64,000 nucleotides of DNA from Neolewinella persica DSM 23188. Lineage in GTDB: Bacteria > Bacteroidota > Bacteroidia > Chitinophagales > Saprospiraceae. Numbering within the stretch: the stretch's first letter is position 1; each line of letters starts with the position of its first letter. Where the stretch lies: contig NZ_KB890434.1 in NCBI RefSeq assembly GCF_000373105.1, positions 183 through 64,182 of the forward strand, read 5' to 3'. Position numbers and translations under genes: made by a program. This document shows positions 3,013 to 62,376 of the stretch, piece by piece. The notes under the pieces were generated by a model. That model saw only the letters and a list, made by a program, of their open reading frames with translations, was not told where the DNA came from and did not search any database.

Positions 3013-3512
3013 ATTGTGCCTTCCTGTCAATACCTCAATAGTTTGGGCGCAAGCGCTTACGTCCCTGAGGTAAATGGCGCGAAAACCCTGCTCATGGCTT
3101 TGACGGGCAAGCGGAAGCCAGCCTTTCCGTTGATTTTGTCGGATTTGCTCAGTTGCCAGCCCGATCAAGCCCCCCGCAAAGAACAATGGCATAGGCCCGA
3201 AAATAAAGCATCAGGTTTTGTCCCCAGGCAGGTAAAACTGTCCTTGCACCTGCGGCCCCGCCCAAATTCTTCTTATTCTTAACGAAAAGTCTATTCTTTT
3301 CCGTGCAGCCCGAAATAAGTGGAACGTAGCAGCATCGGGGTACAGGGGCAGAATAGGCTCTATTGAAACGCGCGAAAACCAACTTGTCGCACTTGCCCGG
3401 CGTAAGCGCTCCAGTGCTACCGGTTAGCGCGACAAGTTGGTTTTTGTACCCAATAAAACCACGGACAAAAGCTAGCTGGGAACACTTACGGCAAAAAGTA
3501 AGTTATACCTCC
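3013..3512. other. 500-bp spacer upstream of the repair operon
   Basis: No convincing gene. Short open frames on both strands (3001-3282, 3149-3382, 3010-3192) have no recognisable domains. The stretch holds CGTAAGCGCT on the minus strand near 3055-3064, a copy of the 18-bp dispersed motif at 3245-3262, a 16-bp stem (3375-3390 with 3429-3444) around a 38-base loop followed by T residues, and CGGCGTAAGCGCTC at 3398-3411. Confidence 0.6.
3245..3262 (+). repeat. 18-bp dispersed motif, module A
   Basis: TGCACCTGCGGCCCCGCC, a perfect match to the window consensus TGCACCTGCGRCCNCGCC. It is preceded by CT and followed by CAAAT, flanks shared with several other copies. Confidence 0.85.
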
Positions 3513-4559
3513 ATGAAGCATAAAAGCTCCACTGATCTCCTGCAATTCACCCCAAAAGGCATCTGGTGCCCGCCGGCAGATGTATACATCGACCCGTGGC
3601 GACCGGTGAAAAAAGCAATGATCACCCACGGGCACGCCGACCATAGCCGGTATGGCCATCGGTCTTACCTGGCCAGTACGACTGCGGGGCCAGCCATAAA
3701 ATACCGTCTTGGGGACATTAATTTACAGACCATCAACTTCGGCGAAAAGATAAACGTCAACGGGGTGCAATTCTCCTTTCATCCGGCGGGTCATATACTC
3801 GGTTCTGCACAAATAAGAGTGGAGCATAAGGGAGAAGTTTGGGTGGCTTCCGGCGATTATAAACTGGAAGACGACGGACTTGCGGAGGCCTTCGAACCGG
3901 TCAAATGCCACACCTTCATCACGGAGTCGACGTTTGGGTTACCGGTGTATGACTGGCAACCCCAGGAAGCTGTTTTTGCAGACATCAATGACTGGTGGAG
4001 AAAAAATGCAGCAGAAGGTAAGGTCAGTTTTATTACCGGTTACTCGCTCGGCAAAGCACAGCGCATCCTGCAGGGACTGGATAGTTCCATTGGTAAAATT
4101 TATACCCACGGAGCGGTAGAGAATATTAATGAAGTGATGCGTTTGCAGGGGATTCCACTTCCCGATACTATTCGTGTGACCGGCGACATCTCATCAAAAG
4201 ATTATCCCACTAACCTGGTGTTGGCACCTCCTTCTGCACTCAATAGCGCGTGGATGAAAAAATTTAAACCCATATCCATTGCGATTGCCTCGGGCTGGAT
4301 GACCTTACGTGGCGCCCGGCGAAGAAAAGCGGTGGAGCGTGGCTTCGTTTTATCCGATCATGTCGACTGGAAAGACCTCAATAAAGCCATTGAAGCAACG
4401 GAAGCCAGTCGGGTAATTGTTACGCATGGCTATACTTCCATTTACACTAAATATCTGCTTGAGCTCGGACTGGACGCAGAGGCCGCTCAAACAGAATTCA
4501 CCGGAGAAAGTATTGATGAGGACGATACACCCAGTGATGAAAAAGACACTACGCTGTGA
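3513..4559 (+). CDS. ligase-associated exonuclease, metallo-beta-lactamase/beta-CASP fold
   Basis: 348 residues from ATG 3513. An upstream TTG at 3363 would add 50 residues with no family likeness, so I prefer the ATG. The protein has HGHADHSRYGH (metallo-beta-lactamase metal site), HPAGHILGSAQ, DYKLEDDG and the beta-CASP-like TGYSLGKAQRIL. The family is the putative 3' exonuclease that accompanies ATP-dependent DNA ligases in bacterial damage-response clusters, and its likely role is trimming DNA ends before ligation. The stop codon overlaps the GTG start of the ligase by four bases (GTGA), which implies translational coupling. Confidence 0.9.
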   Translation: MKHKSSTDLLQFTPKGIWCPPADVYIDPWRPVKKAMITHGHADHSRYGHRSYLASTTAGPAIKYRLGDINLQTINFGEKINVNGVQFSFHPAGHILGSAQIRVEHKGEVWVASGDYKLEDDGLAEAFEPVKCHTFITESTFGLPVYDWQPQEAVFADINDWWRKNAAEGKVSFITGYSLGKAQRILQGLDSSIGKIYTHGAVENINEVMRLQGIPLPDTIRVTGDISSKDYPTNLVLAPPSALNSAWMKKFKPISIAIASGWMTLRGARRRKAVERGFVLSDHVDWKDLNKAIEATEASRVIVTHGYTSIYTKYLLELGLDAEAAQTEFTGESIDEDDTPSDEKDTTL

Positions 4560-6145
4560 AAAATTTCGCTGAATTATTCACCCAACTTGATCAAACTACC
4601 AAGACTTTAAAAAAAGTAGCTGCCCTGGTAGACTTCTTTGAACGCGCGAATGATGAGGATCGCCTTTGGGCCATTGCCATCCTCTCTCACCGTCGGCCCA
4701 AACGAACGGTAAAAACCAGCCTGATGCGGGTTTGGGCAGCAGAATTGGCGGGCGTTCCACTGTGGTTGTTTGAAGAAAGTTATCATGTTGTGGGTGACCT
4801 GGCCGAAACGATTGCGCTCGTATTGCCTCCGCCTACAACACGACACGACGCTTCTCTTTCCGATTGGATAGCAGTCATCAAGAGCCTTGAAAAACAAGAG
4901 GATGCGCTCAAGAAAGAAGTTGTCGTAAAAGCATGGGAGGGGATGGCCTATCCGGAAAGATTTGTTTTTAATAAACTAATTACCGGTGGGTTTCGGGTAG
5001 GGGTCTCCCAAAAATTAATGATGCGTGCTCTGGCTCAATTTGAGGGCCAGGAAGAAAACAGTATTGCGCATCGCCTGATGGGGAATTGGACGCCTGACAA
5101 CACAACCTACGAGGAATTGATCAGGAGCGAAAACCCCCTGGATGATGTATCGAGGCCCTATCCGTTTTATCTGGCCTACGCTCTTGAAAGTGAACCTGCC
5201 ACACTGGGAGATCCTGCTAATTGGCAGGTAGAACGAAAATGGGATGGCATTCGGGGACAGGTCATTGTCAGAGAAGGCAATTTATTTGTGTGGTCGAGGG
5301 GAGAAGAGCTGGTCACTGACAAGTTCCCTGAGTATCATCACTTAGCTGATTTGCTGCCCGACGGCACGGTTATTGACGGCGAGATACTCCCGTATAAAGC
5401 TGGCCAACCACTAACCTTCAATGTTTTGCAAACCAGAATCGGTCGTAAAAATGTGACCAAAAAAATCCTGGAATCTGCTCCCGTCGTGCTGATGTGTTAT
5501 GACCTGTTGGAGTTGGAAGGAGAAGACCTGCGGACTCGCCCCTTGCAGCAAAGAAGAAAACTATTAGAGAAGGTCGTCAAAGAAAACCCCAGTGAAGTGC
5601 TTTTACTTTCAGAGGTTATTCAATTTTCTGAATGGGAACAGACCGCTGAGGAAAGGGCCAATTCCCGGCAACACCTGAGCGAAGGACTGATGATCAAAAA
5701 ACTGGATTCGTCATATCGATCCGGGCGCAAAAAGGGCGATTGGTGGAAATGGAAAATAGACCCGCTCACTATTGATGCCGTCATGATTTACGCACAACAG
5801 GGCCACGGTCGGCGGGCCAACCTTTATACCGATTATACTTTCGCCGTATGGAACGATGAAGAGTTGGTTCCATTTACAAAAGCCTATTCCGGACTGACGG
5901 ATAAGGAGTTTAACAAGATAACCGCATGGGTTCGCAAAAACACAAAAGAGCGTTTCGGTCCGGTAAGAAGTGTAAAGCCGGAGTTGGTTTTTGAAATTGC
6001 CTTTGAAGGCATTAATGCATCGAGCCGGCACAAGTCTGGGGTCGCCCTGCGCTTTCCCAGAATGTTGCGCTGGCGTACCGACAAAAAGATAGAGGAAGCG
6101 AATACCTTAGCCGACTTAAAAAGTATGTTGGAACTATATGGCTAA
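4556..6145 (+). CDS. ATP-dependent DNA ligase, damage-response type
   Basis: 529 residues, starting with GTG inside the stop codon of the exonuclease gene. Residues 1-200 form the alpha-helical DNA-binding domain. The adenylation motif VERKWDGIRGQ places the AMP-accepting lysine at about residue 228. Further nucleotidyltransferase motifs are visible (DGEILPYKAG, GLMIKK, WWKWKIDP), and an OB-fold ends with FEIAFEGINASSRHKSG and ALRFPRM. The ligase seals nicks in duplex DNA with ATP. Bacteria use NAD-dependent LigA for replication, so this enzyme is probably a repair ligase working with the adjacent exonuclease, helicase and PdeM. Confidence 0.93.
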   Translation: MKNFAELFTQLDQTTKTLKKVAALVDFFERANDEDRLWAIAILSHRRPKRTVKTSLMRVWAAELAGVPLWLFEESYHVVGDLAETIALVLPPPTTRHDASLSDWIAVIKSLEKQEDALKKEVVVKAWEGMAYPERFVFNKLITGGFRVGVSQKLMMRALAQFEGQEENSIAHRLMGNWTPDNTTYEELIRSENPLDDVSRPYPFYLAYALESEPATLGDPANWQVERKWDGIRGQVIVREGNLFVWSRGEELVTDKFPEYHHLADLLPDGTVIDGEILPYKAGQPLTFNVLQTRIGRKNVTKKILESAPVVLMCYDLLELEGEDLRTRPLQQRRKLLEKVVKENPSEVLLLSEVIQFSEWEQTAEERANSRQHLSEGLMIKKLDSSYRSGRKKGDWWKWKIDPLTIDAVMIYAQQGHGRRANLYTDYTFAVWNDEELVPFTKAYSGLTDKEFNKITAWVRKNTKERFGPVRSVKPELVFEIAFEGINASSRHKSGVALRFPRMLRWRTDKKIEEANTLADLKSMLELYG

Positions 6146-6340
6146 CCATCGAACACAGTGATGGCTCGGCGTAAGCGCTCATTGGGTTTAAATAAATGAA
6201 CTAGCCTTATGATTGTGGTTCGTCCGCCGGCCCTGGCTTTAGGGCTTATTCATTTTTTAAAATCAATAAATGTTACGAGTTATTGCAACAAATTGGTTTG
6301 CGCCCAATTGACCCGTTAATTACTAACAATAAAAAAACAC
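6146..6340. other. 195-bp spacer inside the repair gene set
   Basis: Contains CGGCGTAAGCGCTC at 6167-6180, identical to 3398-3411 upstream of the exonuclease gene. It is A+T-rich towards the helicase start. No clear promoter hexamers or terminator were seen. Confidence 0.4.
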
Positions 6341-8797
6341 ATGACCCGAAAGGAGCAAATCGAAATTGGAAGCCGGTGGTTTCAACAAAAAGGTTGGACC
6401 CCTTTCCCATTTCAGGTCCAAACCTGGAAAGCTTATTTGCAGGGGAAAAACGGTGTTGTGAACGCAGCAACGGGTAGTGGAAAGACCTACGCATTACTTG
6501 TTCCCATCCTTTTAGAATTTATTGCTAAACACCAGAAGAAAAAAAAAATACCCGCTCAAAACGGCCTCCAGGCCATCTGGATCTCTCCCATCAAAGCTCT
6601 GACCAAGGAGATTAAACTTTCTGCTGAACAAGCCATCGAAGCTTTAGGGCTCAACTGGAAAGTCGCAATTCGAAGCGGCGATACCTCCAGTGCTGAGCGA
6701 GCTAAAATCAAAAAACGGCCTCCGGAAATTTTAATTACCACGCCTGAAAGTCTGCACCTGCTGCTGGCTACGGCTGGCTACGAAGACTTTTTTAATAACC
6801 TCAAGGTATTCGTAGCCGATGAATGGCATGAACTGCTTGGTTCTAAACGGGGGGTACAGGTAGAATTGGCTTTGTCGAGACTGAAAGCGCTTTTGCCAAA
6901 CTTGAAAGTTTGGGGTATATCTGCCACCATTGGGAATATGGAGGATGCGGCAGCTGTTTTGTTTGGGGCGGATTATAAAAAGGACAACTGGAAACTCATC
7001 CGTTCCAAGATCGAAAAGAAGATTGACATTCAACCGGTGCTGCCGGATGACATCGAGCGATTCCCCTGGGCGGGTCACCTGGGTATCTTTCTGGCAGAAA
7101 AAGTGCTGGATATTGTCAACGACAGTACCACCACCTTACTCTTCACTAATACCAGGAATCAATGTGAACGCTGGTATCAGGAGTTATTGGCGCTTCAGCC
7201 TGACCTGGCCGGACTAATCGCTATGCACCACAGCGCTATTGCCCGCACCCAGCGAGACTGGGTGGAGGAAGCACTGCATGAAGGAAAACTAAAACTGGTC
7301 GTCTGTACTTCCAGCCTGGATCTGGGCGTGGATTTTCGTCCGGTCAAAACGGTCATCCAGATCGGGAGTCCGAAAGGAGTTGCCCGCTTTTTGCAGCGGG
7401 CCGGGCGGAGTGGCCATCAACCGGGAGCGACCAGCGTTGTGCATTTTGTTCCCACTCACGCATTGGAACTGGTGGAGTCAGCGGCGTTGCGCCGGGCAGT
7501 AGCCCGCAAAAACCTGGAAAGCAGAATACCTTACATTCGATCTTTTGATGTGTTGGTGCAGTACCTGGTGACCCTTTCCGTTTCAGGTGGTTTTGATGCG
7601 CTTCAAATCTATGAAGAAGTAAAGAAAACGTATAGTTACGAAAGCGTCACCCCTGAAGAATGGGACTGGTGCCTGGCTTTCATCTGTACGGGTGGCACCT
7701 CTCTGGATGCCTACGATGAGTATAATAGGGTAGGCTTGTACAAGGGCAAATATTATATCGTCAATAAAGCAATGGCCACACGTCACCGACTTTCCATTGG
7801 TACGATAGTAAGTGATACAATGGTGGAAGTGAAGTATAGAAACGGATCGAAAATTGGCCGGGTAGAAGAGCGGTTTATTTCCGGCTTACGACCGGGTGAT
7901 GTGTTCATGTTTAGTGGAAAGGTATTGGAATTGGTCCGTTTCAGGGGAATAGAAGCCCGGGTGAAAGCGAGTAAGAAAAAAAGAGGGATTACCCCCTCCT
8001 GGGCGGGCGGGCGGATGCCTTTTTCTTCTCAACTTTCGGAAGAACTGCGGCACCAAATGACCCTGATACAACGGGACGATCTGTCATCGCAGGAATTAAA
8101 AAAACTTCGACCGCTTACGGATATTCAAAAAAAACGATCCGGCATACCTGCCGAAAATGAATTGTTGATTGAGTATTTCAAAGACAGGGAAGGTTACCAT
8201 TTGCTGTTTTATCCGTTTGAGGGGAGGTTTATACATGAAGGCCTGAGCACCCTGATCGCCTGGCGGATTTCACAACAGATCAAAATTACGTTTACCATTG
8301 CCGTAAATGACTATGGTTTTGAACTGCTCAGCGATCAGTCGATCGATCTGGAAACTGTCCTTAAGCCGGGCTTATTCACGACCGAAAATCTTAAGGAAGA
8401 CATTCTGGAAAGTGTCAACGCGGTAGAAATGGCCAAACGCAGATTCCGGGATATTGCCAGTATCGCGGGGTTGATTTACAAAGGTTACCCGGGGATGCAA
8501 AAGAGTACCCGGCACCTGCAGTCCTCTTCCCAGTTATTCTTTGAGGTCTTCCAGCAACATGAACCCGACAACTTATTGGTTAAGCAAGCCAACGAAGAAG
8601 TCATGCGTTTTCAGTTAGAAGAAAACCGGCTACGTAGTACACTGGATCGATTAACCGAACTGGAATTGATGATCAAATCAATCAATCGACCTGCTCCGTT
8701 GACCTTCCCGATCATAGTTGACCGGTTGCGAGAAAAAGTCTCCAGCGAAACCTTGCGGGAAAGAATCAGCAAAATGAAATTAAAAATAATTAGATAA
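6341..8797 (+). CDS. ligase-associated DEXH helicase (Lhr-like)
   Basis: 818 residues. Superfamily 2 motifs are clear: Q-motif region TPFPFQVQTWKAYL, Walker A NAATGSGKTYAL, motif Ia WISPIKAL, DEWH box, SAT motif (WGISATIG), HHSAIART, CTSSLDLGVDF and QRAGRSGHQ. The remaining ~400 residues correspond to the winged-helix and Lhr-specific core. The length matches the short Lhr-core proteins found beside ATP-dependent ligases. It probably loads on single-stranded DNA or DNA:RNA hybrids and moves 3' to 5', as known for Lhr. It is separated from the ligase by 195 bp and from pdeM by 28 bp. Confidence 0.92.
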   Translation: MTRKEQIEIGSRWFQQKGWTPFPFQVQTWKAYLQGKNGVVNAATGSGKTYALLVPILLEFIAKHQKKKKIPAQNGLQAIWISPIKALTKEIKLSAEQAIEALGLNWKVAIRSGDTSSAERAKIKKRPPEILITTPESLHLLLATAGYEDFFNNLKVFVADEWHELLGSKRGVQVELALSRLKALLPNLKVWGISATIGNMEDAAAVLFGADYKKDNWKLIRSKIEKKIDIQPVLPDDIERFPWAGHLGIFLAEKVLDIVNDSTTTLLFTNTRNQCERWYQELLALQPDLAGLIAMHHSAIARTQRDWVEEALHEGKLKLVVCTSSLDLGVDFRPVKTVIQIGSPKGVARFLQRAGRSGHQPGATSVVHFVPTHALELVESAALRRAVARKNLESRIPYIRSFDVLVQYLVTLSVSGGFDALQIYEEVKKTYSYESVTPEEWDWCLAFICTGGTSLDAYDEYNRVGLYKGKYYIVNKAMATRHRLSIGTIVSDTMVEVKYRNGSKIGRVEERFISGLRPGDVFMFSGKVLELVRFRGIEARVKASKKKRGITPSWAGGRMPFSSQLSEELRHQMTLIQRDDLSSQELKKLRPLTDIQKKRSGIPAENELLIEYFKDREGYHLLFYPFEGRFIHEGLSTLIAWRISQQIKITFTIAVNDYGFELLSDQSIDLETVLKPGLFTTENLKEDILESVNAVEMAKRRFRDIASIAGLIYKGYPGMQKSTRHLQSSSQLFFEVFQQHEPDNLLVKQANEEVMRFQLEENRLRSTLDRLTELELMIKSINRPAPLTFPIIVDRLREKVSSETLRERISKMKLKIIR

Positions 8798-8825
8798 GCC
8801 CTGAAAATAGGTGGCAATACCCAAT

Positions 8826-9464
8826 ATGACCATTTTACTGAAAAACCAAACGTTACATTTACATCCAAATAAGGCAATCTTTTGGGAGAATAAAAAAATA
8901 CTGTTCATTGCAGATCTTCATCTCGGTAAAGCTGCTCATTTTCGAAAGAAAGGTATCGCTGCTCCACCTGCCCTATTCGAGCAAAACATACAAAACCTGC
9001 GCCAGCTGATTACGCATTTCCACCCCGTCAGGGTCCTTATTCTGGGCGACCTGTTTCACAGTACCCTGAATATAATCTGGAATAAATTCGAAGCATTCCT
9101 GTTACAATTTTCTGAAGTCAGTTTCGAATTAGTCAAGGGAAATCATGACATTTTACCTGAACAGGTTTATGCAGATTCGATATTGACCCTGCATCAGCCA
9201 CCGATCATTATTGAACCGTTTATTCTTTCGCACTATCCGCTGGAAACCGTTCCCGAAGGCCTGTATAATTTATATGGTCATTTGCACCCCGGCGTTTTAT
9301 TGGAAGGAATGGGCAAACAACTATTGAAACTACCTTGCTTTTATTTGGAACCTACCCAGGCAGTGCTCCCTGCATTTGGTGCCTTCACCGGTCTCGCGTT
9401 GGTACAACCCCAAAAAGGCGACCGGGTCTTTGTGGTTTTGGAGGACGAGGTGTTGGAAATGTAA
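8826..9464 (+). CDS. pdeM: ligase-associated calcineurin-like phosphoesterase/endonuclease
   Basis: 212 residues from ATG 8826. A GTG at 8811 is possible but adds only VAIPN. The metallophosphoesterase signatures DLHLGK, GDLFHS, KGNHD and GHLHPG are all present and in order, so the two-metal site looks intact. This family (PdeM) is the fourth member of the ligase-associated damage-response set. The stop codon is followed within a few bases by transposase-derived sequence. Confidence 0.88.
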   Translation: MTILLKNQTLHLHPNKAIFWENKKILFIADLHLGKAAHFRKKGIAAPPALFEQNIQNLRQLITHFHPVRVLILGDLFHSTLNIIWNKFEAFLLQFSEVSFELVKGNHDILPEQVYADSILTLHQPPIIIEPFILSHYPLETVPEGLYNLYGHLHPGVLLEGMGKQLLKLPCFYLEPTQAVLPAFGAFTGLALVQPQKGDRVFVVLEDEVLEM

Positions 9465-9465
9465 A

Positions 9466-9830
9466 GGCGAAGAAAAGCTTCAACAATGCCAAACTCAAAC
9501 GTCATCTGGACCGGACCTATAGGCGGATCAACGAAGCACCGGATGCGTTTTCCCGCCAGGACAAGCACGGAGACAGCGAGAATATGTCGGATTTGGTGGC
9601 GCGGCCGCAGGATGCTATGCAAGTTTTAAAAGCAAGGAGGACCAACTACGTATCCCAGCGAAAAAAAAACTACTAGAAAACGACGACATCCAAATCTGCC
9701 TGACGGAACCTGACGCTCGATCTCTGATTAAGCATGGCCTGAAGCTACTGCGTTCTTCCGGTAGGGTGGACTAACGAAGCTGATGTTTTTGTGTATTTTG
9801 TGAGGGGTCACGGAGGACGGTGAGCTGATC
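9466..9830 (+). pseudogene. second decayed IS1182-family transposase
   Basis: Directly after the pdeM stop the frame reads [18 protein letters not shown], matching the [14 protein letters not shown] stretch at 257-305. It continues through a lysine-rich coil to a stop at about 9676. The next frame gives NDDIQICLTEPDARSLI, typical of the transposase core, and the end reads VFCEGSRR, parallel to SVFCEWPQ near 475. The N-terminal third and most of the DDE domain are missing. Together with 3-530 it brackets the T9SS gene and the repair genes. Confidence 0.7.
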
Positions 9831-9898
9831 GAAGCCTGAAAATTGGGTTTTGGGTGGGGACTTATCATACAGACTCGCATTATGGGTAATTAGAAAAA

Positions 9899-10699
9899 AT
9901 GAATCATACAAATCTGATAATACTATTGATGTTGTTTGTAGTGACAACTTTTATCTCTCGAAGAGATAAAAACCAATATGATGTCTTCAAGTCGATACAA
10001 AAGACTGGTGATCGTCAAAAATTTTTCAAAAGATGGGCGATAGAGTCCTTCATTATTTATGGATTGTTGTCAATGATAATTTTGTCGATTATAGGGCAAA
10101 TTTATTCATTGAAAGTAATGCCAGATTTTCTTGTTGATTTTTCAAAGTCCGTAAAGTCTATTGGTGAAATGAATGAGAGTGATTTTATCTCCGGATTTTT
10201 TAAAGGAATTATGATAAGTATTGTCCCCGTTCTATTATTTGGAGGAACAATTGGTGCATTCTTGAAAGAATATAAGGATTATAAAGATAGAAAATCGAAG
10301 AACAACATTGAATCGGAAGAAATTAACTTCAGGAACCTTGATGCTTTAATACCTAAGAATTATAAAGAAAGAATTTGGGGGGCGATTCTATCCATTAATG
10401 CAGGTTTTTCTGAAGAAATATTCTTTCGAGTATTGGCTCCCATATTAATTTATAGTGTAACTAGTTCCGTCTTAATTGCAATTATCGGTTCAACAATTTG
10501 GTTCGGATTAGTACACTATTATCAAGGAATGGCAGGGGTTTTTGTTACTTTTTTTGTAGGATTATTAATGTTTATTGTGTACATGATTACCGAAAATATT
10601 TGGATAACAATGCTGGTTCATGCGGTTCTTGACTTGAACGGATTAGTTTTTAGCCCTTGGCTAAAGGCAATATTTGCAAATCGAGAAAATTCAGCATGA
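9899..10699 (+). CDS. CPBP-family intramembrane metalloprotease
   Basis: 266 residues with about six hydrophobic segments. The conserved motifs of the CPBP/Abi family are present: SEEIFFR (EExxxR) near residue 175, FGLVHYYQG near 203, and a final HAVLDLNG. Relatives are membrane proteases of the Rce1/type II CAAX-like group. The substrate here cannot be told. Base composition is strongly A+T-rich, unlike the repair genes upstream, and the gene sits beside a transposase remnant, so recent acquisition is likely. Confidence 0.85.
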   Translation: MNHTNLIILLMLFVVTTFISRRDKNQYDVFKSIQKTGDRQKFFKRWAIESFIIYGLLSMIILSIIGQIYSLKVMPDFLVDFSKSVKSIGEMNESDFISGFFKGIMISIVPVLLFGGTIGAFLKEYKDYKDRKSKNNIESEEINFRNLDALIPKNYKERIWGAILSINAGFSEEIFFRVLAPILIYSVTSSVLIAIIGSTIWFGLVHYYQGMAGVFVTFFVGLLMFIVYMITENIWITMLVHAVLDLNGLVFSPWLKAIFANRENSA

Positions 10700-11024
10700 A
10701 TTATTTAATGAAAGGAAAAAAGCTCATAATCCTTAAAACCCCAAAAACATCCCCGACAAAACGAACCCAAACGTTGCACCTGCGGCCCCGCCCAGCTACT
10801 TTTGCCCTTTGCGAAGTTGGCCACAGGATTCCAGGCAATGGAATCAGAGAGGGAATAGCAAAGCTGGTGTTGGAGCGGCGCAAGTCGTTTGTAACGCAAG
10901 CACCAAATTAGCATATATTGGTCAGCCGCAGAGTTGGTGTTGCGAATGTTGGAGACATTTCGAGTTGTCCATCTAAGAAGTATTCGTTTACTGAAAAACA
11001 CGCTCCCTTTTAACTGGAATTTCT
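10700..11024. other. 325-bp spacer with a dispersed motif
   Basis: No supported gene; open frames on both strands lack domain signals. A copy of the 18-bp motif lies at 10775-10792. Confidence 0.5.
10775..10792 (+). repeat. 18-bp dispersed motif, module A
   Basis: TGCACCTGCGGCCCCGCC, identical to the copy at 3245-3262. Confidence 0.85.
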
Positions 11025-13601
11025 ATGAAAAATATACTGACTACGAAGTGGTTTAGGACATACCATGGCGCTGAACGCCCGCAAACGCTGCTGCTCTCAG
11101 GTCAACCTTATCCGAAACCTTTACGGTTTGGGTCCCTACTCGTGCTAATTTTTTGCCTCGCTGGTTTGACGACGACCCAGGCGCAGACCGATTGGAAAAA
11201 GTGGTATGGCGAACCCAATCAACAAGAAATACTCATCGCTGCCGAGCCGGGAGCCGATAGTACCAATTTTTGGGCAGCCGGGACGATTGCCAACGGATTT
11301 CACGATGATTTTTGGCTCGTCCGGTTCAACCCGCAGGGCGAAATCATCTGGTCAGATACGCTAGGTAACCCCGACCGGAACGAACGGCTCTCTGATTTTT
11401 CGCGTAATACCACGACGGGCGAAATGTGGCTCGCCGGCGACAGCCGCCCGGGGAGCGACTGGAAAAACAGGCAGGTTTTTCTTCAAAAACTGGATGCCAA
11501 CGGACAGTTGATCTTTGAAAGAACGGGCTTGTTTGGCTTCATCGGAAATGGCGAAATCCACCTGAACATTAAAGCCGTGGGCAACGGCGTACTGATTTTT
11601 CACCAGGAAACGGGCATCCTCAGGCGGCTCGACGCGCTGGGCGAAGTAGTGTGGGAGCGCACCTTTTCGACTTCGGCCAACCCCGTTAACCGACAAAACG
11701 TAGAAGCACTACCCGATGGTGGTTGCTTTTTTATCGAAAACCTTAATAATCCGGATAGGTGTGTTTTGTACCGACTCGATGCAGAAGGGCAAACCAATTG
11801 GCAGACGACGCTTGAATTCCCGACAGATTTGACGAGCGGCAGCCACGGAACTTCTTTAGCGGTGGATGCTGCCGATACGTCGGTTTACGTAGCGGCGCGA
11901 AGTGGAAGTTACGACGGCATGCAAAAGTTTGCCGCCGACGGGCAGCTGGTTTGGGAAACGGTCCTGCCCTTTCCGGCAGTTCAAAATGGCTTTTTGGATT
12001 CCTGGCTCTTGCAAATCCCTGCAAACAACCAAATCGCCTTGTTTTCCAACCACGCCTACCAGGTTTTGGATAACCAAACAGGGGCGTTCATCACCGGGGA
12101 AGACAATTTCTCCCCATCCCAAAGCTCGCAATTTGTTTTGCTGAACGACGGCGTTTTATTTCCCGATGGCACGTTCACGGTGGTAGGTACGACCAGCGAG
12201 AATTGGTACAGCTACGATGGCTACTCGGCACAAAGGAGTGCCGACGACTTCCAGATTTTACAGGAAAATACTTTCGGAAGCCCTTCGCCCAATGATACCG
12301 ACTACCTGGCATGGGTTGAAACTGCCGCTGATGGCGACAGCTACTTGGCGAACATCACCTATTTTGAAGGAAGAAAAACGGGCATCGTACTCCGAAAAAT
12401 CAGCCCCGACGGCGCGGAGATCTGGAAAAAAGCATTCACCGGCACGCGCGGATACTGGAATTTAGAGATGCGTAGCGCCGACGACGGTAACCTGTTTTTA
12501 ATGGGGCACAGTAGCGACAGCATCAGTGTAAAAAAACTGAACCCTGATGGCGACTTGCTTTGGCAACGGGATTTCAGATGTATCGGGAACATTGCTACCC
12601 AATCACTCAGCGCACCACTGCAAAATGGCGGCGTCGTCGTTTTTTCCCCGTTTGCAACCTTTCGGCCAATCGTACGGTACTGGGAAGTGCGGGGTTTTGC
12701 TGCCGATGGCAACGAAATGTGGAAAAGGCGCATTTTCGAAGACCAGATCAACGATTCGGGTTTGCAGTGGAGGCCGTTAAGCACCGTGGATTTGGGTGAT
12801 GGGACGGTAGCAGCAGTGGGCAGGAAGGATGCCACTGAGGGTTTACTCGTTCGGCTTGATTTACTGACGGGGGCACCGGTTTTCGAAAAAATCATTTCGG
12901 ATAGTGGCAGTCTTACCGATGTGCTCCCATCCAGCGACGGAGGCTTTTTGGCCCTGAGGGCAAAATATGTAGGCGACGGGCTGGACGAATTTGAGCTGTA
13001 TAAAATCAGTGAGCAAGGCGCTATCCTGGCAGTGCAAAACCTGCCACTTACTCCTAAGGATTATTCGATTCATTCAGGGTTGTACCGCGATGCCGAAGGC
13101 AATGTCGTACTCTCTGCACTCTCCGACGACAATCTTTTGGAGGTTTTGAAATTGAACGACAACCTCGATTTACTCGACCAAAAAACGATCAGCCTGCAAC
13201 CTAACATGGACCGGATAAGCGGTCAAAGAATGCTGCCCGATGGCTCACTTTTGCTCACCGGCCAGGGCCCAAACGCAAACAGCGCCGATGTTTTCATCAT
13301 AAAAACTGATAAATCAGGCATCGTTTCAAACCGTTTTTTACTCGATGAAAGCGATTTTCGGATTTTTCCAAACCCGGTTGCTGCGGGCCAGCCGCTCCAC
13401 ATTGTGCTGGAGAATGATTTTCGAGGGACAGTGAAGTTTGAAATTTTGAGCATGGACGGACGCGTTATTTCTGTTTTTAAAGCGGAAAAAACAGACCGGA
13501 ATCAAGTTTTTAAAACGTTGAATTTGCCCGTAAGGGGCTCCTTCCTCGTCCGTTTTTCGGACAAGGAACGATCAGCAGTTCGGCTTGTCTTTAAATTTTG
13601 A
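11025..13601 (+). CDS. T9SS-sorted beta-propeller protein
   Basis: 858 residues. The hydrophobic signal core (LLVLIFCLAG, cleavage near TTQAQ) starts only at about residue 37, giving an unusually long n-region that is encoded by an interspersed repeat (11042-11132). The body consists of repeated propeller blades with turns such as GEIIWSDTLGN, DANGQLIFERTG and DGQLVWETVLPF, as in PQQ/WD40-like secreted proteins. The last ~85 residues are a T9SS type A domain (FRIFPNPVAAGQ, then FEILSMDGR). It should be exported and anchored to or released from the surface; the ligand is unknown. A shorter protein starting at a downstream codon cannot be excluded. Confidence 0.8.
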   Translation: MKNILTTKWFRTYHGAERPQTLLLSGQPYPKPLRFGSLLVLIFCLAGLTTTQAQTDWKKWYGEPNQQEILIAAEPGADSTNFWAAGTIANGFHDDFWLVRFNPQGEIIWSDTLGNPDRNERLSDFSRNTTTGEMWLAGDSRPGSDWKNRQVFLQKLDANGQLIFERTGLFGFIGNGEIHLNIKAVGNGVLIFHQETGILRRLDALGEVVWERTFSTSANPVNRQNVEALPDGGCFFIENLNNPDRCVLYRLDAEGQTNWQTTLEFPTDLTSGSHGTSLAVDAADTSVYVAARSGSYDGMQKFAADGQLVWETVLPFPAVQNGFLDSWLLQIPANNQIALFSNHAYQVLDNQTGAFITGEDNFSPSQSSQFVLLNDGVLFPDGTFTVVGTTSENWYSYDGYSAQRSADDFQILQENTFGSPSPNDTDYLAWVETAADGDSYLANITYFEGRKTGIVLRKISPDGAEIWKKAFTGTRGYWNLEMRSADDGNLFLMGHSSDSISVKKLNPDGDLLWQRDFRCIGNIATQSLSAPLQNGGVVVFSPFATFRPIVRYWEVRGFAADGNEMWKRRIFEDQINDSGLQWRPLSTVDLGDGTVAAVGRKDATEGLLVRLDLLTGAPVFEKIISDSGSLTDVLPSSDGGFLALRAKYVGDGLDEFELYKISEQGAILAVQNLPLTPKDYSIHSGLYRDAEGNVVLSALSDDNLLEVLKLNDNLDLLDQKTISLQPNMDRISGQRMLPDGSLLLTGQGPNANSADVFIIKTDKSGIVSNRFLLDESDFRIFPNPVAAGQPLHIVLENDFRGTVKFEILSMDGRVISVFKAEKTDRNQVFKTLNLPVRGSFLVRFSDKERSAVRLVFKF
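11042..11132 (+). repeat. ~90-bp interspersed repeat, module C (coding copy)
   Basis: Runs from TACGAAGTGGTTTAGG to TTTACGGTTTGGG. About four in five bases match 62238-62327 in the same orientation, including an exact CGCTGCTGCTCTCA. Here it encodes residues ~7-36 of the propeller protein, ahead of its signal-peptide core. Confidence 0.75.
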
Positions 13602-13720
13602 AAATAGTAGAACATTAATGACTGTTGGTGAACATCAATTTGTAATATGAAAGCAGCCAATAGAGTAGGGTAGGAACGTCTGGTACCCGTCGTAGGTAAT
13701 AAATAATAAAAAAATATCCA

Positions 13721-14737
13721 ATGAAAGTAAGATTCCTTTTGCTAACTTTAATTGTACTGATGTCGAATTGTGCTGAAAATAAGCCAAAATCGACCAATAC
13801 AGATACAGCGAATACGTCAGATATCTCAATCTATAAGGGAACCGCAAGTGTTACTCAGGGATTGGCAAAAATTACAGCCGAAAACATCTATAAATGTAAC
13901 AGAGGAAGAAAAACAGATTTGGGTGAAATTGGCTCCTCGGATGGGAAGAAATGGATAGTTCCTGCCAATACGAATTTTCAGAACGACGATTTTCCTTTCT
14001 CAACTGATTTACATAACTCTTGTGCTGGAAATACTTATTCAAACGCACAAGATGCATTGTCCAAATTGGACGGTTCGGATATTATCGAGATTGATTCGGA
14101 CGGAGCACTTTTTACTACTTATATTTTTGCTGATAATTATTTTGAAATGTATGTCAATGGTGTAGCAGTCGGTAAAGATCAGGTACCATTCACGGAATTT
14201 AATTCCAGTTTAGTGAGATTTAAGGCTGAAAAACCGTTTACTATTGCTATGAAATTAGTGGATTGGGAGGAACATCTTGGCGTGGGTTGCGAAGAAAACA
14301 GGGGGAAAGCCTACCATGCTGGAGATGGTGGAGTGGTAGTAGTAATGAAAGATGAACAAAACAATATTATCGCCACTACGAATGAGAATTGGAAAGCACA
14401 AACCTTTTATACTGCCCCTGTCAAGGATTTAAGCTGCGTGGAGGAAAGAGATAACGTTAGATATTCTAAAGACTGTGATGACAGTGGTGGTCAGGATGGA
14501 AGTGCATTTTTTGCCTTGCATTGGGAAATTCCTTTAGGCTGGACAATGCCTGGTTTTGATGATACCAATTGGCCTGACGCAACTACTTTTTCTAACGAAA
14601 CAATCGGGGTAGATAACAAATCATCATACACCAACTTTACCAATATTTTTGATGATCCAACTAACGATGCAAATTTTATTTGGTCCACAAATGTTGTTTT
14701 AGATAATGAAGTTCTAGTACGATATACCGTAAAATAA
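13721..14737 (+). CDS. putative lipoprotein of unknown function
   Basis: 338 residues. The N-terminus (MKVRFLLLTLIVLMSNC) ends in a plausible lipobox, with Cys17 as the lipidation site. The mature part is rich in Asp, Asn and aromatic residues and contains beta-sandwich-like stretches (FADNYFEMYVNGVAVGKDQ and WTMPGFDDTNWPDAT). Such stretches are common in galactose-binding-like folds. I do not recognise a family. The stop is 10 bases before the start of the YHYH gene, so the two are probably one operon. The segment 13600-16080 is A+T-rich compared with both sides. Confidence 0.7.
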   Translation: MKVRFLLLTLIVLMSNCAENKPKSTNTDTANTSDISIYKGTASVTQGLAKITAENIYKCNRGRKTDLGEIGSSDGKKWIVPANTNFQNDDFPFSTDLHNSCAGNTYSNAQDALSKLDGSDIIEIDSDGALFTTYIFADNYFEMYVNGVAVGKDQVPFTEFNSSLVRFKAEKPFTIAMKLVDWEEHLGVGCEENRGKAYHAGDGGVVVVMKDEQNNIIATTNENWKAQTFYTAPVKDLSCVEERDNVRYSKDCDDSGGQDGSAFFALHWEIPLGWTMPGFDDTNWPDATTFSNETIGVDNKSSYTNFTNIFDDPTNDANFIWSTNVVLDNEVLVRYTVK

Positions 14738-14747
14738 ACTACCAATT

Positions 14748-27092: not shown

Positions 27093-27110
27093 TGCACCCG
27101 CGCCCGCGCC
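27093..27110 (+). repeat. 18-bp dispersed motif, module A
   Basis: TGCACCCGCGCCCGCGCC, two bases from consensus, followed by AAAAAAG. Confidence 0.65.
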
Positions 27111-41372: not shown

Positions 41373-41380
41373 ATCATGTT

Positions 41381-44013: not shown

Positions 44014-44019
44014 AGGCGG

Positions 44020-44027
44020 CAAAGGTA
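44020..44027 (-). promoter_or_regulatory. -7 element directly before pheT
   Basis: TACCTTTG on the minus strand, separated from the ATG by only six bases. The -33 element is not obvious. If used, the transcript would have almost no leader. Confidence 0.45.
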
Positions 44028-48155: not shown

Positions 48156-48445
48156 CGTTGATGGAAATTTGTCGGTACGGTACCGGATTGATGGAAATTA
48201 ACGACAGTGTTGGCGCGCGCGCACTTTGCTGCAAAACCTCTTTTTGCACCTGCGATCTCGCCTGATTAGTCAAATAGTCTACAGTCAAGTAGTCTTTAGT
48301 ACAGTCCTACTCTATCTGACTACAAACTTCTTAACTATCGGAATAATGAAGCGAGGCCGCAGGTGCAAAGAAGAGTTAAAGAGCAAAATTGGAATACATT
48401 GTCCAACTCCCCCGCTACTTGACTCTCTGACTGTAGACTACTTAA
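48156..48445. repeat. 290-bp repeat element with two inverted module A copies
   Basis: Module A at 48245-48262 (plus, one mismatch) and 48350-48367 (minus, one mismatch) face each other. Outside them are inverted word arrays: AGTCAAATAGTCTACAGTCA from 48269, and on the other side AGTTAAGTAGTCTACAGTCA (minus strand, from 48445). The right array begins at the TAG stop of guaB (48448-48446). No gene inside. Confidence 0.8.
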
Positions 48446-50077
<1,632 letters not shown>

Positions 50078-50142: not shown

Positions 50143-50856
50143 TCACCCCGCAGTGATGGCCAAAGTAGCTATCCCAACCCGCAACTCCGGGTGGTGCTCC
50201 AACAGTATGTTACCGCAAAAATCAAGTGTAGCGCCGGTCGTCAGTACATCGTCAATCAACAGGAGATGCTTTCCGGTAAAATCACCGGTGCCGGTAATGA
50301 AAGAATCCCGGGTGTTTTCAACCCGTTCAAAACGACTCTTCTTCGTTTGGGAACCTTTGAAACTTCTTCTGCGTAACGCATCCGCATACATTGGTTTTCC
50401 GAGTGCCCTTGAAACGCCCCGGCCAATTTCTTCCGCCTGGTTGTACCCTCTTTGGTGGCGACGGTCAGGGTGTATTGGTACGGGGACGAGGCCGTCCAGG
50501 TCCTGAAGTGCCGGATGTTCTTTTAGCAAGGCTCCTAACCGCTGACCTAATTCTACGCCAATATCTGGTCGGTGATGGTATTTTAAGGCATGGATCAACT
50601 GCTGGCAGACGGTACCCGTATTAAAAAAGAGCAGGGCCGCTCCGAAGGTGAGGGGGAGGCGACCAGTCAGCCGATCCGTAAGTTCATTTTCGGGCAGCAG
50701 CCAGTGCTCGGTCAGCGCAAGGTCGCTTTGGCAGGAAAAGCAGAGTTGGGTGGGTTGGCCACGGGTGACCGTCTGCCGGCAATTGAGGCAGAGCCGGGGG
50801 TAAAGCAGACCGGAGAGCCCTTCGCCCAAGGTGCGAAATTGTTGCTTAATTGACAT
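50143..50856 (-). CDS. comF: ComF-family phosphoribosyltransferase-like protein
   Basis: 237 residues from ATG 50856 (MSIKQQFRTLGEGL); a longer frame reaching 50949 lies inside the upstream gene. An N-terminal CLNC ... CFSC zinc-finger-like cluster (residues ~22-48) and a C-terminal PRTase domain with the PRPP loop LLIDDVLTTGATLD match ComF. Relatives help in uptake or processing of transforming DNA. It overlaps the 3' end of the barrel gene by 11 bases, so they share a transcript. Confidence 0.88.
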   Translation of the reverse strand: MSIKQQFRTLGEGLSGLLYPRLCLNCRQTVTRGQPTQLCFSCQSDLALTEHWLLPENELTDRLTGRLPLTFGAALLFFNTGTVCQQLIHALKYHHRPDIGVELGQRLGALLKEHPALQDLDGLVPVPIHPDRRHQRGYNQAEEIGRGVSRALGKPMYADALRRRSFKGSQTKKSRFERVENTRDSFITGTGDFTGKHLLLIDDVLTTGATLDFCGNILLEHHPELRVGIATLAITAG

Positions 50857-51640
50857 ATTTCCACTTACGCATGAAGCGCAGCCCGAAGCTGATCTCGATG
50901 GTGAAGTTTCGGATTTGCCGGGCACCGATTGTTCGGGGTGCGCCGCCAAATGGATCGATCACGTTCTCGATTGGCCCTTGATTGTACTGAAAGGTAAAGT
51001 CGGGATTTGCGGTGATTTCGATAAATCCACTCGTTTTATCGGAGATGGGAATGAGTGCGCCGGCACCAAAAATTGCACCAGCCATGATTGGCCTGACGGA
51101 CCTGGTAGGCTCCTCGACCTCGATAGGGTAATTTAGCCTAAAGGCGGCACTTACGCTATTGCTGAGGTCATTGTACTCGCTCAAGTTGTTGCTGAGTGTG
51201 TAGTCTACTCTTAATCCTAAAACGTAGTAAATATCTGCAGCACGCGTATAGGCGAAAACAGATTTGCCACCAATTGCGGCCGAGACATTCTGGAAGCGAA
51301 AATCATCTGCTGGCAAGGTGACCTGCCCGCCATTAAAGGTGAAACCTCGCCGCCGACTGATTTTACTGCCTCTGACGTGATATCCCAGCTGGCCAAAGAA
51401 GCTAAATCTCCCTTGGGCAGGAATGGTTTCGTAGTATAATGCACCGTGGTAAGCGAGCAATAATTCCGTTTCTAACCCGGACCAATCCTGATTGCCAAGG
51501 CTCGGTCCGCCCTTGATGCCAAAGAGATAGCCACCCCAATCGACGCCATATTCACCTTCTTGTTCTAGGTCCTGAGCGATGAGCTGGTTACTGCCGAATG
51601 AAATCGTCAGTAACAGAAGTAAAGAGAGTTTTAGCCGCAC
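50846..51640 (-). CDS. outer-membrane beta-barrel protein (PorT-like size)
   Basis: 264 residues. Signal peptide MRLKLSLLLLLTISFGSNQL. Alternating hydrophobic strands with aromatic girdles (GGYLFGIKGGPSLGNQDW, FSFFGQLGYHVRGSKI, YYVLGLRVDYTLSNN) and a final FTIEISFGLRFMRKWKYVN typical of small Bacteroidota barrels. Function unknown. It is upstream of and overlaps comF. Confidence 0.75.
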   Translation of the reverse strand: MRLKLSLLLLLTISFGSNQLIAQDLEQEGEYGVDWGGYLFGIKGGPSLGNQDWSGLETELLLAYHGALYYETIPAQGRFSFFGQLGYHVRGSKISRRRGFTFNGGQVTLPADDFRFQNVSAAIGGKSVFAYTRAADIYYVLGLRVDYTLSNNLSEYNDLSNSVSAAFRLNYPIEVEEPTRSVRPIMAGAIFGAGALIPISDKTSGFIEITANPDFTFQYNQGPIENVIDPFGGAPRTIGARQIRNFTIEISFGLRFMRKWKYVN

Positions 51641-53247: not shown

Positions 53248-56200
53248 CTACCTCAAGAGTAGTACGTCACCTGCCAATTCGACTGTCCGGCCATCGAGTA
53301 ATTGCACTTTTACCTTGTAAATATAAACGTCTTGCTCGTTGATGTCACCATTCGGTGCAAAGCCATCCCAGCCCCAGGAGGCATCTGTGGGGCTTACTGT
53401 ATCCTCAAGGTGATAGACCATTGCTCCCCAACGATTGAAAATGGTGAAATTGGAAAAATTCAGCACCGTCCTCGGTCTGGCATAGAGCCGGAAAAGATCA
53501 TTGACCCCATCCTCGTTAGGAGTGAAGACGTTTGGAACATAAACTGGAACAAAATCATCAATGATTACCTCCACCATAGTGGAAGCAAAGCAGCCGAACT
53601 CATCCATCACCGAAATCTGATAAGTTGTATTCTCGGTCGGGCCGACAAAAAAGTTGTCGTTGAAGATCATGGAGTCTGGCCATGGGCTAACCTGAAACCC
53701 CGTCACGTCCAGGTTAGTTAGTACCCTAATGTTGGCACTATCACCCTGTGCAATGATCGTGCGTGAAGGCGTAGCAAAAACCTCAGCAAGTGGAGGTGGG
53801 CCGAAAGTGAAGGTCTCTGAAAGCAGGCAACCATTGACGTCTTCTACCTCTAACAAAGACCGGCCAACGGGCAACAGCAAGGTGTCCGGTAAATTGTTTA
53901 TCGGCCTGAATCCACTGTTATTACCAATACGGAAAAGGTAAGGACTTACGCCGCCTTGTACGTCTCTTAAAATGATTGATGGCAAGGTGTCACGACAGTT
54001 GGCATCTACCTCCGAGAGTACGGAAACCAGAATTTCGGGGGCCGTTAGTCCTATCCTGGCTTCCGCCCGGCAACCCCGGGAGCTCGTTACCTGAACATTA
54101 TAATTCCCGGCCGGCAGGTTCCGTAGCTCCGCATTTTCTCCACCGTTATTCCATTGGAAGGTGTAAGGTGGTACTCCTCCGCTGGGTATGGCCAATACTT
54201 CTCCATCCGAACCATCGGCACAGCTTACGGCAAAAACGCCGTCTCCGCTCAGGATGTCAATATTTACCGCCAGGTCTGTTTCTCTGACGGTGATGCTTCC
54301 TGAACTGATGGCCGGGCAGGGACCTTCACCCGTCACGTCTATTATGGTTACCACGGAGCCCGCCGGAACCAGCCGGTTGATGGTGGTCGAACCCGCCACA
54401 AGGGTAATTCTTTCCGTAGGGTTTGAGCTGAGAATGACCGTTGCAATCCCTGGCCCATCATAAGAAAAGTTAATTTCCAGTTCTCCTCCCGGACAAATAA
54501 TCCCATCTCCTGAAATCCTCACTTCAGGAATAGGGATGGTACTAACGGTGACGAAAACAAGGCTGTCACAACCGTAACGATCCGGAATGTCGAGCTGGGT
54601 AAGCACATTATTCGCCGCGCCTTCGAACAGTACATCGCCGTACTGAAGGGTTGTGCCTTCGCAAATGGCCGTATCCAGCACACCAATTACCTCTGGGTGA
54701 AAATCGACGCTCACCATTACCGTACTGTCGCAGCCAGCAGCAGAAGGAATGGGAAGGCGGACCATACCGCGTGGACGGTTGATGTCGAAGTATTGCCCAA
54801 AATAAAACAGACGGGTGTAATTGCAGATCGTGGTATCCAATACGCCCATGGCTTCCGGGAAGAAGTTTACCGTCACCATCACCGTGCTGTCACATCCGTT
54901 TACTGATGGTGTTGGCACGACGACTTCTCCGGTAGTCCGGTTGGAGTGGAAAATTTGACCGAAGTAATTCAGTCGTTGGCCGGGGCAGAGGGTGGTGTCA
55001 AGTGTACTGATTGATGGCGCGAAGAAATCAACAGTCACCAGCACCGTACTGTCGCAACCACCTGCTGAAGGTGTGGGAACTATTACGCTTCCGGAACGAC
55101 GGTTGTTGTTAAATGTCTGGCCAAAGAAGTTTAATTGGGTGCCGATACAGAGGGTAGTGTCAAAGGCGCTGAACGCAGGTGCAAAGTATTGAACGTTGAC
55201 GAGCAAGGTACTGTCACAGCCGTTGACGGATGGAAACGGAAGGACGGTTTGTCCCATTAGCCGGTTTTCGTCAAAAACGTCACCGAAAATATTTAAACGT
55301 TGCCCCACACAAAGAACCGTGTCCAATCGGCCAATAGCTTGTGGGAATACCGCCACTGGAAGGCTACGGTCAATGGGCCGTAAACAGCCGTTTCCATCGG
55401 TAATGTCAAGTAGCCTGAGGGTGACGTCCTGAAGTGAAGTCAGTCCCAGGTCAGCAGGACAAATGGACTCCTGTCCGGAGGTCGAACGGTTAATGGTGCG
55501 TATTTGCTCGGGTTCGCCAGGTCTGCTGAAGGCATAGTTAATGGCAAACGGCGGAGTACCCGACAGGCCAAGCTGCAGGTTAGTGCAGCCGTCGTCACAC
55601 ACACCGGTAATTCCGGAAGTCGTGAGGCCAGGAGTATCGGTAAAGGGTGAGATGATTACGCGTCCGGTCGCTTCACATCCGGAAGCGTCAACGATGGTCA
55701 CCCGGTAGGAACCAGCGCGCAGGCTATCTGCTACCGCCAGCGTGTCACCGTTGCTCCATTGATAAGAGACGGGACCGAAGGGGTTAGTTGGTGTTGCGGT
55801 TGCGGAGCCCAGTGGGTTGTCGCAATCAGGCTGGACGGTAGACGTCATTAAACCGATCTGACATGGGCCAGGGTTGACAATGGCGGAACATTCCGTTGTA
55901 CACCCGTTCTGGTCCGTTATGATCAGGTCATATGTTCCTGGGTTCAGATCGGTAAAGGTTGTATCTGAGTTCGCGCTCAGCGAGAAGGAGCCCAGGTCCC
56001 CACTCAGCATTACAACACCTACTGCACCTGCGTTCCCGACTGATACTGTGCCGTCCATTACACCCGCAATGGTTTCCGCAGTAGCACTGCAATTCATGGT
56101 GAGCAAAGGTGGTTGTGTGATGATAATGTTGTCGGTAGCCTGGCACCCATTGGCGTCGGTTACCACTACAGAATAAGTGCCATTTATGAGGCCATCAACG

Positions 56201-60449: not shown

Positions 60450-60455
60450 GTAACC

Positions 60456-61196: not shown

Positions 61197-61517
61197 GAGA
61201 TCAGTGTTCAGGTTTCAGGAATCAGGCTAAGGAGTCAGTATTCAGTACCTCAGGTTGTCGGGCTATTGTTTTTCAGACTGAACTTCACGAGCATACCGAA
61301 CCTCCCTGTGCGGCAGCACTAGTAAGACCAATAGGACCACAATACTAAATTAGGCGCGCGATCGCAGGTGCAGTGGAATACGTTAAGAAGCAAGCTGATT
61401 TTGTGCCATTATCCTTACTGACAAGTTGGTTTTCCCACCCCTAAGCACTGATTGCCGTGCACTGAAAACTGAATACCGGGCACTGAACCCTAAGCACTGA
61501 ATACTAAAACCTAAGCC
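61197..61517. repeat. stop-to-stop element between rnc and the convergent glycosyltransferase
   Basis: Left words from 61201: CAGTGTTCAGGTTTCAGG, GTCAGTATTCAGTACC. Right words (minus strand from 61520): TAGGGCTTAGGTTTTAGTAT, TCAGTGCTTAGGGTTCAGTG. Between them are an inverted module B (61286-61317) and a module A variant (61355-61372, minus). The minus-strand array begins with the TAG stop of the next gene. No gene inside. Confidence 0.75.
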
Positions 61518-62123: not shown

Positions 62124-62237
62124 AGGCGGGAAGGTAGGTATTTAGTCTTGTAGTTCAGTAGTCTTGTGGTCTGGTGGGCTCCGCAAGTGGGTTGCTCGCT
62201 GCGCTCGTAAATATTCGCTTTTGGGGGTATATTCATC

Positions 62238-62327
62238 ACGAAGTGGTTTGGGAAATGCCGCAGCGCTGAGCGCCTGCAATCGCTGCTGCTCTCAAGTCAA
62301 CTGTATCCTAAGCCTTTACGGTTTGGG
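62238..62327 (+). repeat. ~90-bp interspersed repeat, module C (intergenic copy)
   Basis: CACGAAGTGGTTTGGG to TTTACGGTTTGGG. Same orientation and about four in five bases shared with 11042-11132, where it is coding. Confidence 0.75.
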
Positions 62328-62358
62328 TATAGGAACACTTGCTTATTTGTGCCTCCCT

Positions 62359-62376
62359 TGCACCTGCGGCCGCGCC
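62359..62376 (+). repeat. 18-bp dispersed motif, module A
   Basis: TGCACCTGCGGCCGCGCC, a perfect copy and identical to the one inside pheT. Confidence 0.85.

Follow-up and report, generated by a model that had tools for sequence, protein, structure and literature searches.

An abundant 18-bp motif in Neolewinella genomes forms species dialects and resembles a DNA uptake sequence

What is a motif of 18 bp doing at more than a dozen places, between and inside genes, in a single stretch of bacterial chromosome? The stretch in question, here called the window, comprises the 64,000 nucleotides at positions 183 to 64,182 of contig NZ_KB890434.1 of Neolewinella persica DSM 23188, and the original prediction, made from its sequence, hesitated between a DNA uptake sequence and REP (repetitive extragenic palindromic) elements. 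A rescan of the window returned all 15 copies at the coordinates and on the strands first listed, in spacers, at the end of a CHAT-domain gene, in the linker of an E2 acyltransferase and twice in pheT; seven are perfect, four carry one mismatch and four carry two, in agreement with the mixture of perfect and slightly altered copies described. Eleven of the 15 are intergenic according to a simple gene caller that we wrote for this analysis. At up to three mismatches from the 18-bp core the window holds 17 matches, against a mean of 0.37 in 100 dinucleotide shuffles (largest, 2). We find that the motif is a real, genus-wide repeat that forms dialects and evolves like an uptake sequence, and by analogy with known systems we judge that, on balance, it probably works in Neolewinella as a mark of self-DNA in the manner of a DNA uptake sequence. 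We temper this judgement because three lines of evidence, the search for pilus machinery, the agreement of dialects with phylogeny and the control for REP-associated tyrosine transposases (RAYTs), are not fully clean.

The genome that contains the window (G000, 7.08 Mb) carries 1,660 copies of the motif at up to two mismatches, or about 234 per Mb, with no strand bias (821 forward, 839 reverse), against nine for a reversed-pattern control (three forward, six reverse). For a closer view we used 124 copies from 464 kb of this genome (the window, 360 kb of contig 1 and 40 kb of contig 2), among which 60 are perfect, 35 have one mismatch and 29 have two, where four runs of an order-3 Markov simulation gave averages of 0, 0 and 0.25; matches with three mismatches number 18 in the same DNA, against 4.25 simulated. 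The logo of these copies has the core TGCACCTGCG-n-CC-n-CGCC, flanked upstream by a pyrimidine-rich arm, as far as about -23, and on the other side by a tail rich in A, as far as about +23, so that the shared flanks first noticed around the window copies are genuine and extend further than had been stated. Conservation is absent outside about -25/+24, and the motif is thus neither confined to the window nor always embedded in one larger element. We rejected a larger transposable element, or a miniature inverted-repeat transposable element, for the same lack of extended conservation and since the interiors of closely paired copies, some of them intragenic, are unique by eye.

The upstream arm holds a second conserved element. 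TGCT[CT] occurs in the arm of 41 of the 79 intergenic and 28 of the 45 coding copies, against averages of 1.25 and 1.0, respectively, in four offset windows; about half of all copies have it at 17-23 bp upstream, with a peak at 19-21 bp among the intergenic ones. The element is bipartite, with TTGCTCC and TTGCACC separated by about 20 bp, or about two helical turns. By eye, the arm TTGCTCCTTTT looks like the core, TTGCTACTTTG, of the dialect used by another species, G205, and the few copies viewed from other species have a weaker arm. As a speculation, this layout would suit a protein with contacts to a pair of similar half-sites, spaced by two helical turns.

Counts in related genomes place the motif within one genus. 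Nineteen of 21 Neolewinella genomes hold 64-1,660 copies, and the other two, G205 (11 copies) and G207 (nine), are at control level for this motif and have forms of their own. Each of the 195 genomes outside Neolewinella in a family sample of 199 has at most 11 copies, and in a phylum sample of 395 all but one of the 393 genomes outside Neolewinella have 19 copies or fewer, the exception being G229. The motif is limited to Neolewinella among the sampled genomes, with G229 a weak exception. G229, a distant member of the Bacteroidota (family f20, genus g169), has 64 copies against 13 for the reversed-pattern control, an excess that may reflect either chance from composition or a related mark. 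Spread by viruses was considered and rejected: one exact core form occurs in 16 viral stretches, with just one or two copies in each.

Neolewinella species carry dialects of the motif. De novo enrichment of 10-mers in ten species, combined with logos, gave a clear result in seven and a modest one in G214; no clear de novo motif emerged from 66-100 kb of G204, G206 or G215, the first two of these belonging to the ten. The favoured motif is GGCACCTGCGGCAGCGCC in G193, TGCACCCGCGACCGCGCC in G199 and a form TACCTGCGCTCCGCCGCC in G207; that of G205, TTGCTACTTTGnnAG, is very different. In whole-genome counts over the 21 genomes, the G205 form occurs 984 times in G205, with 0-8 copies in every other genome (22 exact copies lie in 95 kb of G205, one of them counted twice because the pheT locus overlaps the stretch), and the G207 form occurs 609 times in G207, 183 times in its sister G215 and 1-93 times elsewhere. 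A further form, GCACCTGCGGCAGCGCC, is present at up to one mismatch in 861 copies in G193, 780 in G201, 420 in G000 and none in G207; the motif of G000 itself lies one mismatch from GCACCTGCGGCAGCGCC. On a tree of 20 species built from pheT and comEC, with G205 set as root, G207 groups with G215 as its sister, and the longest branch is that of G205. The agreement between dialects and tree is partial, as judged without a formal test. Searches for a comparable motif found none in ten genomes of other Saprospiraceae genera (34-40 kb each), nor in stretches of 14-22 kb at nine named loci from elsewhere in the Bacteroidota, by a test that is insensitive at this scale: in 40 kb, known motif fragments of G207 and G199 ranked only eighth and seventh.

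How copies come to lie inside genes can be followed in codon alignments of pheT (19-20 species) and comEC (20-21 species); two further alignments, W38926- and W44357+ (five and 16 species), contain no site. At all six motif sites in pheT and comEC, at least one species without the motif aligns ungapped. In pheT, column 1484 carries an antisense copy in eight clade-A species and column 1556 a copy in the G205 dialect. Column 2299 carries a sense copy in six clade-A species at up to one mismatch, with LHLRARQ or similar in the protein, and column 2283 an antisense copy in eight clade-B species, with VAGA; these two overlap a single stretch, so that two clades bear the motif there on opposite strands and their proteins differ accordingly. 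Both window copies in pheT (41566-44022, - strand) belong to this picture. One, at 41946-41963 (-), has two mismatches, reads in the sense direction as LHLRARQ and has an antisense counterpart at the same spot in the other clade; the second, at 42692-42709 (+), is perfect, lies antisense over LARPQVQ and occupies a site common to eight species, at which 11 species without the motif align ungapped. In comEC, seven clade-B species have a copy at column 427, mostly encoding ALHLRPRP, where G207 has TATACCTGCGCCCGTCGCC, which resembles its own dialect, and nine clade-A species have one at column 1892, with G205 carrying its own dialect at 1893. From these alignments, coding copies in pheT and comEC seem to have arisen in place by point mutation, with no insertion.

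The gene caller, run without annotation and with rough start sites, assigns 82% of the window and the contig 1 stretch and 75% of the contig 2 piece to coding sequence, yet 79 of the 124 copies are intergenic and 45 coding (27 sense, 18 antisense). Most of the 14 sense copies in frame 2 lie in Ala/Pro-rich stretches such as APAAAPK, eight of the ten in frame 0 fall, by eye, within hydrophobic leaders at the N terminus whose end reads CTCGRAQ or similar, and the antisense ones specify, for example, GAAAGA or ARPQVQ. The copies prefer intergenic spaces, linkers and N-terminal leaders, that is, tolerant sites. Intragenic position bias of uptake sequences is treated in PMC2346458; the bias described by Van Passel was not clear here, with 10, 6, 3, 3 and 5 sense copies and 5, 1, 4, 3 and 5 antisense copies in successive fifths of genes. 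A promoter or leader element was tried as an explanation and rejected, as intergenic copies between tandem genes are co-oriented with them in 19 cases and opposite in 23.

We propose the following mechanism. Competent Neolewinella cells would bear a putative DNA receptor that favours the local dialect; imported DNA would pass through ComEC and DprA and then be recombined; repeated import of motif-bearing fragments would push motif-like sequences toward the consensus, as a molecular drive; and a shift in receptor specificity would move the genome to a new dialect. ComEC is found in all 21 Neolewinella genomes and DprA in 20, the one miss being a genome that is 55% complete; these proteins permit competence but are widespread, and are hence weak evidence. 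The ComF gene first reported in the window is indeed a ComF-like gene (50143-50949, - strand), with a phosphoribosyltransferase match above its cut-off and a double zinc ribbon below its own; it is a possible competence component, with nothing linking it to reading of the motif. A PF00437 (type II/IV assembly ATPase) search of the 21 genomes, which did not extend to pilins and secretins, found no convincing assembly ATPase of a pilus or type II secretion system. It returned weak partial matches in 20 genomes, 11 of them marginally above the 24.9-bit cut-off, that reach at most 25.5 bits with neighbours and cover about 84 of 370 positions. They lie in frames of about 950 or, for others, about 650 residues; of the 14 control genomes, 13 were positive above the cut-off. 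We take the partial matches in these long Neolewinella frames to be other ATPases. Given the lack of a convincing pilus assembly ATPase in that search, a minor pilin such as ComP of Neisseria, or the predicted PpdA/ComN of Pasteurellaceae, is probably not what serves as the putative receptor. We tentatively entertain, at a little short of even confidence, a fuller version of this proposal: that Neolewinella has independently evolved a pilus-free system of self-recognition for DNA uptake, whose receptor would read the 18-bp core together with a second half-site and whose specificity would have switched several times, rewriting hundreds of sites and with them the sequences of essential proteins.

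Comparison with known systems brings out both likenesses and differences. DNA uptake sequences (DUS) of Neisseriaceae are likewise a single short motif with thousands of copies, part of them intragenic, and with species dialects, and these dialects agree with Neisseriaceae phylogeny (PMC3630211), whereas those of Neolewinella do so in part. DUS are about 13 nt long, as against 18 bp plus an arm, and the original remark on the motif's greater length holds against them. ComP, a type IV minor pilin, reads DUS, whereas in Neolewinella the search returned no convincing pilus ATPase, and the uptake function is assigned by analogy. The uptake signal sequences (USS) of Pasteurellaceae also have a core within a longer, weaker motif, even spacing, a preference for non-coding or tolerant regions and two dialects (PMC12616744, PMC1939737), and the density in G000 falls within the range given for Apl-USS, 200-500 per Mb. 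In PMC1939737 the build-up of uptake-enhancing sequences in tolerant regions is argued to stem from point mutation and molecular drive. USS differ in their unrelated sequence and in having a predicted minor-pilin receptor (PMC12616744), while the Neolewinella motif has its TGCT[CT] arm about 20 bp upstream. Closer in phylogeny is Riemerella columbina, also of the Bacteroidota, in which own DNA competes better (PMC7965970). In its relative R. anatipestifer, ComEC, DprA, ComF and RecA are required along with unknown proteins, and pilus homologues were reported as not found in either Riemerella (PMC8459023); unlike Neolewinella, R. columbina has only A/T-rich k-mers listed as candidate uptake sequences, with no comparable motif shown (PMC7965970). 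Within the open-licence literature that we searched, as far as its text was available, we came across no description of this motif, nor of a similar one from the Bacteroidota.

The uptake-sequence idea of the original prediction is well supported on anatomical grounds: the many copies, their even division between strands, the tolerant sites, in-place gain in two genes and the dialects. Uptake sequences are described, in the literature surveyed, for Neisseriaceae and Pasteurellaceae, with known or predicted type IV minor-pilin receptors. If our reading is true, Neolewinella would be a third and phylogenetically remote case, with no recognisable pilus machine, and marking of self-DNA would be seen to evolve repeatedly. 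Its 21 genomes with several dialects would then allow a hunt for the receptor by co-variation, the motif would tell which DNA suits transformation of these marine bacteria, and the opposite-strand spot in pheT would plainly show an essential protein being shaped by a drive at the DNA level.

Other explanations deserve weighing against this one. The motif might be the binding site of a chromosome-organising or nucleoid-associated protein, with a bound site about every 4 kb held under selection and dialects that track the DNA-binding domain. The long bipartite layout, with TGCT[CT] about 20 bp upstream, and the absence of strand bias would suit such a protein, as would the spacing of copies along the 360 kb of contig 1, which is more even than random by coefficient of variation (0.75, P=0.001), though not significantly so by counts in 20-kb bins (P=0.11). 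It could also bridge closely spaced copies, which prefer one arrangement: at up to three mismatches, pairs within 300 bp in G000 are head-to-head (-+, 5' ends inward) in 18 cases, reversed in four and in the same direction in two (P=0.004), and pairs within 600 bp in 18 other stretches of G000 and six relatives are head-to-head by nine to one (P=0.02). The preference is weaker with each species' own pattern (five to three in G193, three to one in G199 and one to none in G207 and G214), and all four close pairs of G205 have the opposite arrangement. Such an explanation requires that hundreds of sites be selected individually, even in pheT and comEC, where the protein changes with the motif, and that all sites moved jointly in the large shift of G205. 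We consider it unlikely.

A second alternative is an intracellular recombination signal like Chi, which would favour the integration of fragments that carry it and would spread by biased recombination with no surface receptor. It accounts for in-place gain, genome-wide spread and dialects. Chi, however, acts in one orientation, and the motif has no orientation bias, either in the whole genome or in the 360-kb stretch (49 forward, 47 reverse), as measured by contig strand rather than direction of replication; Chi sites are also much shorter than the 18-bp core. This makes a Chi-like role rather improbable.

The other idea of the original prediction, REP elements, would make the motif a non-autonomous element moved by Y1 transposases. 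REP and REPIN families with their RAYTs share with the motif a high copy number, intergenic bias and inverted close pairs, and Y1_Tnp (RAYT) genes are present in 20 of 21 Neolewinella genomes, including G205 and G207, which both lack this motif. We checked 19 RAYT loci among 70 Y1_Tnp matches listed, 14 of them from genomes other than G000, most of which are poorer in the motif. Copies lie within 500 bp on both sides of two loci, on one side of two and beside none of the other 15; among 161 ordinary G000 genes of 240-800 nt, a control that is not matched and was scored within 400 bp, five are bracketed, 53 have a copy on one side and 103 have none. Any nearby copy is thus rarer at RAYT loci (4/19 against 58/161), whereas the bracketed share is higher (2/19 against 5/161), on tiny numbers. 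The two bracketed loci are L064 (G000:C28, partial domain only) and L074 (G214:C2), each with - and + copies within 350 bp of the transposase domain; a single cognate RAYT may yet exist. REPs are defined as palindromic repeats of 20-40 bp (PMC3733652). The motif has no extended palindrome: of eight window copies folded, six gave z values between -1.21 and 1.40 and two folded better than shuffles (-2.1 and -2.72), and within the core only a 3-bp stem recurs. Among the 79 intergenic copies, the most alike pair of arms has 22 of 32 identities, close to the mean best value of 21.5 in shuffles, and 32 pairs have at least 20 of 32, as against 6.6 in shuffles; we attribute this moderate excess, without proof, to the shifting spacing of the arm. 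Over all copies, arm identity likewise shows an excess of similar pairs, headed by signal-peptide copies and one internally duplicated gene. With coding copies free of insertion, no clear association with RAYTs and mostly unremarkable folds, REP-type transposition is disfavoured, and no more than disfavoured, for intergenic copies, and as an account of the motif as a whole we find it quite improbable. A second repeat family in the window, ACGAGCG(A/C)AGCGA(G/A)C..., which occurs in direct and inverted orientation at 26072, 38731, 38804, 61287 and 45172, is perhaps a better REP candidate than the 18-bp motif.

Spread of a protein-level cassette, a segment encoding a signal peptide or linker, is hardly credible and largely refuted: leaders do hold eight of the ten frame-0 copies, and at least one called-intergenic copy (contig 1, 240398) also reads as an N-terminal leader, but only those ten of 124 copies are in that frame, while 79 are called intergenic and 18 are antisense.

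Several observations weigh against the motif being an uptake-like mark of self-DNA. ComEC and DprA also match in 10 and 11, respectively, of 14 control genomes. In-place gain rests on two genes and on coding copies, and at comEC column 1892 nine of the 11 species without the motif are gapped, which makes this site weak evidence when taken alone. Two species rich in the GCACCTGCGGCAGCGCC form, G201 and G193, are not sisters, and the sisters G193 and G199 favour different forms. Near-copies with four mismatches are barely enriched in the 464 kb (43 against 31.5 simulated), a sharper fall-off than molecular drive might give. The core with its arm is longer than known uptake sequences, and the higher bracketed share at RAYT loci and the excess of similar intergenic arms, both given above, also count on this side. 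Finally, the preference for head-to-head pairs is not predicted by a plain uptake model; two-site binding, by a receptor or by a looping protein, might account for it.

The remaining copies in the window complete the inventory. Five of the 11 intergenic copies are perfect, at 3245-3262 (+), 10775-10792 (+), 23584-23601 (+), 26009-26026 (-) and 62359-62376 (+). Four have one mismatch, at 20194-20211 (+), at 29849-29866 (-), with a TTGCTCC arm upstream, and at 48245-48262 (+) and 48350-48367 (-), which form a +- pair, and two have two mismatches, at 27093-27110 (+) and 61355-61372 (-). Beyond pheT, a copy with two mismatches (19386-19403, -) runs antisense through the final codons of the CHAT-domain gene (16438-19416, + strand), and a perfect copy (31946-31963, +) reads in the sense direction as PAPATAP in the Ala/Pro linker of the E2 acyltransferase gene (31611-32990, + strand). 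Two weaker matches, each with three mismatches, lie in the E2 linker (31901-31918, +) and antisense in a large gene (56023-56040, +). Positions 1-16000 of the window have a GC content of 0.43-0.48, against 0.51-0.55 elsewhere, and hold only two of the 15 copies.

Other repeats were noticed in passing. Three direct repeats of 300 nt (605-904, 1361-1660 and 2117-2416 of the window), 88-92% alike and spaced at 756 bp, lie in one long open reading frame, and two 101-nt stretches (11033-11133 and 62228-62328), 82% alike, lie 51 kb apart. Heptamers of the type AACTTGC/AACCTGC occur in direct and inverted orientation at 41375-41566, adjoining the end of pheT, and degenerate repeats of the type ACAAGACTACA / GACTAAA occur at 47031, 51698 and 62414. 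In other genomes, GGCGAAAGCC occurs six times in 40 kb of G087 (L247-L248) and GCCGAAAGGC five times in 40 kb of G029 (L251-L252), and each reads like a short hairpin with a GAAA loop.

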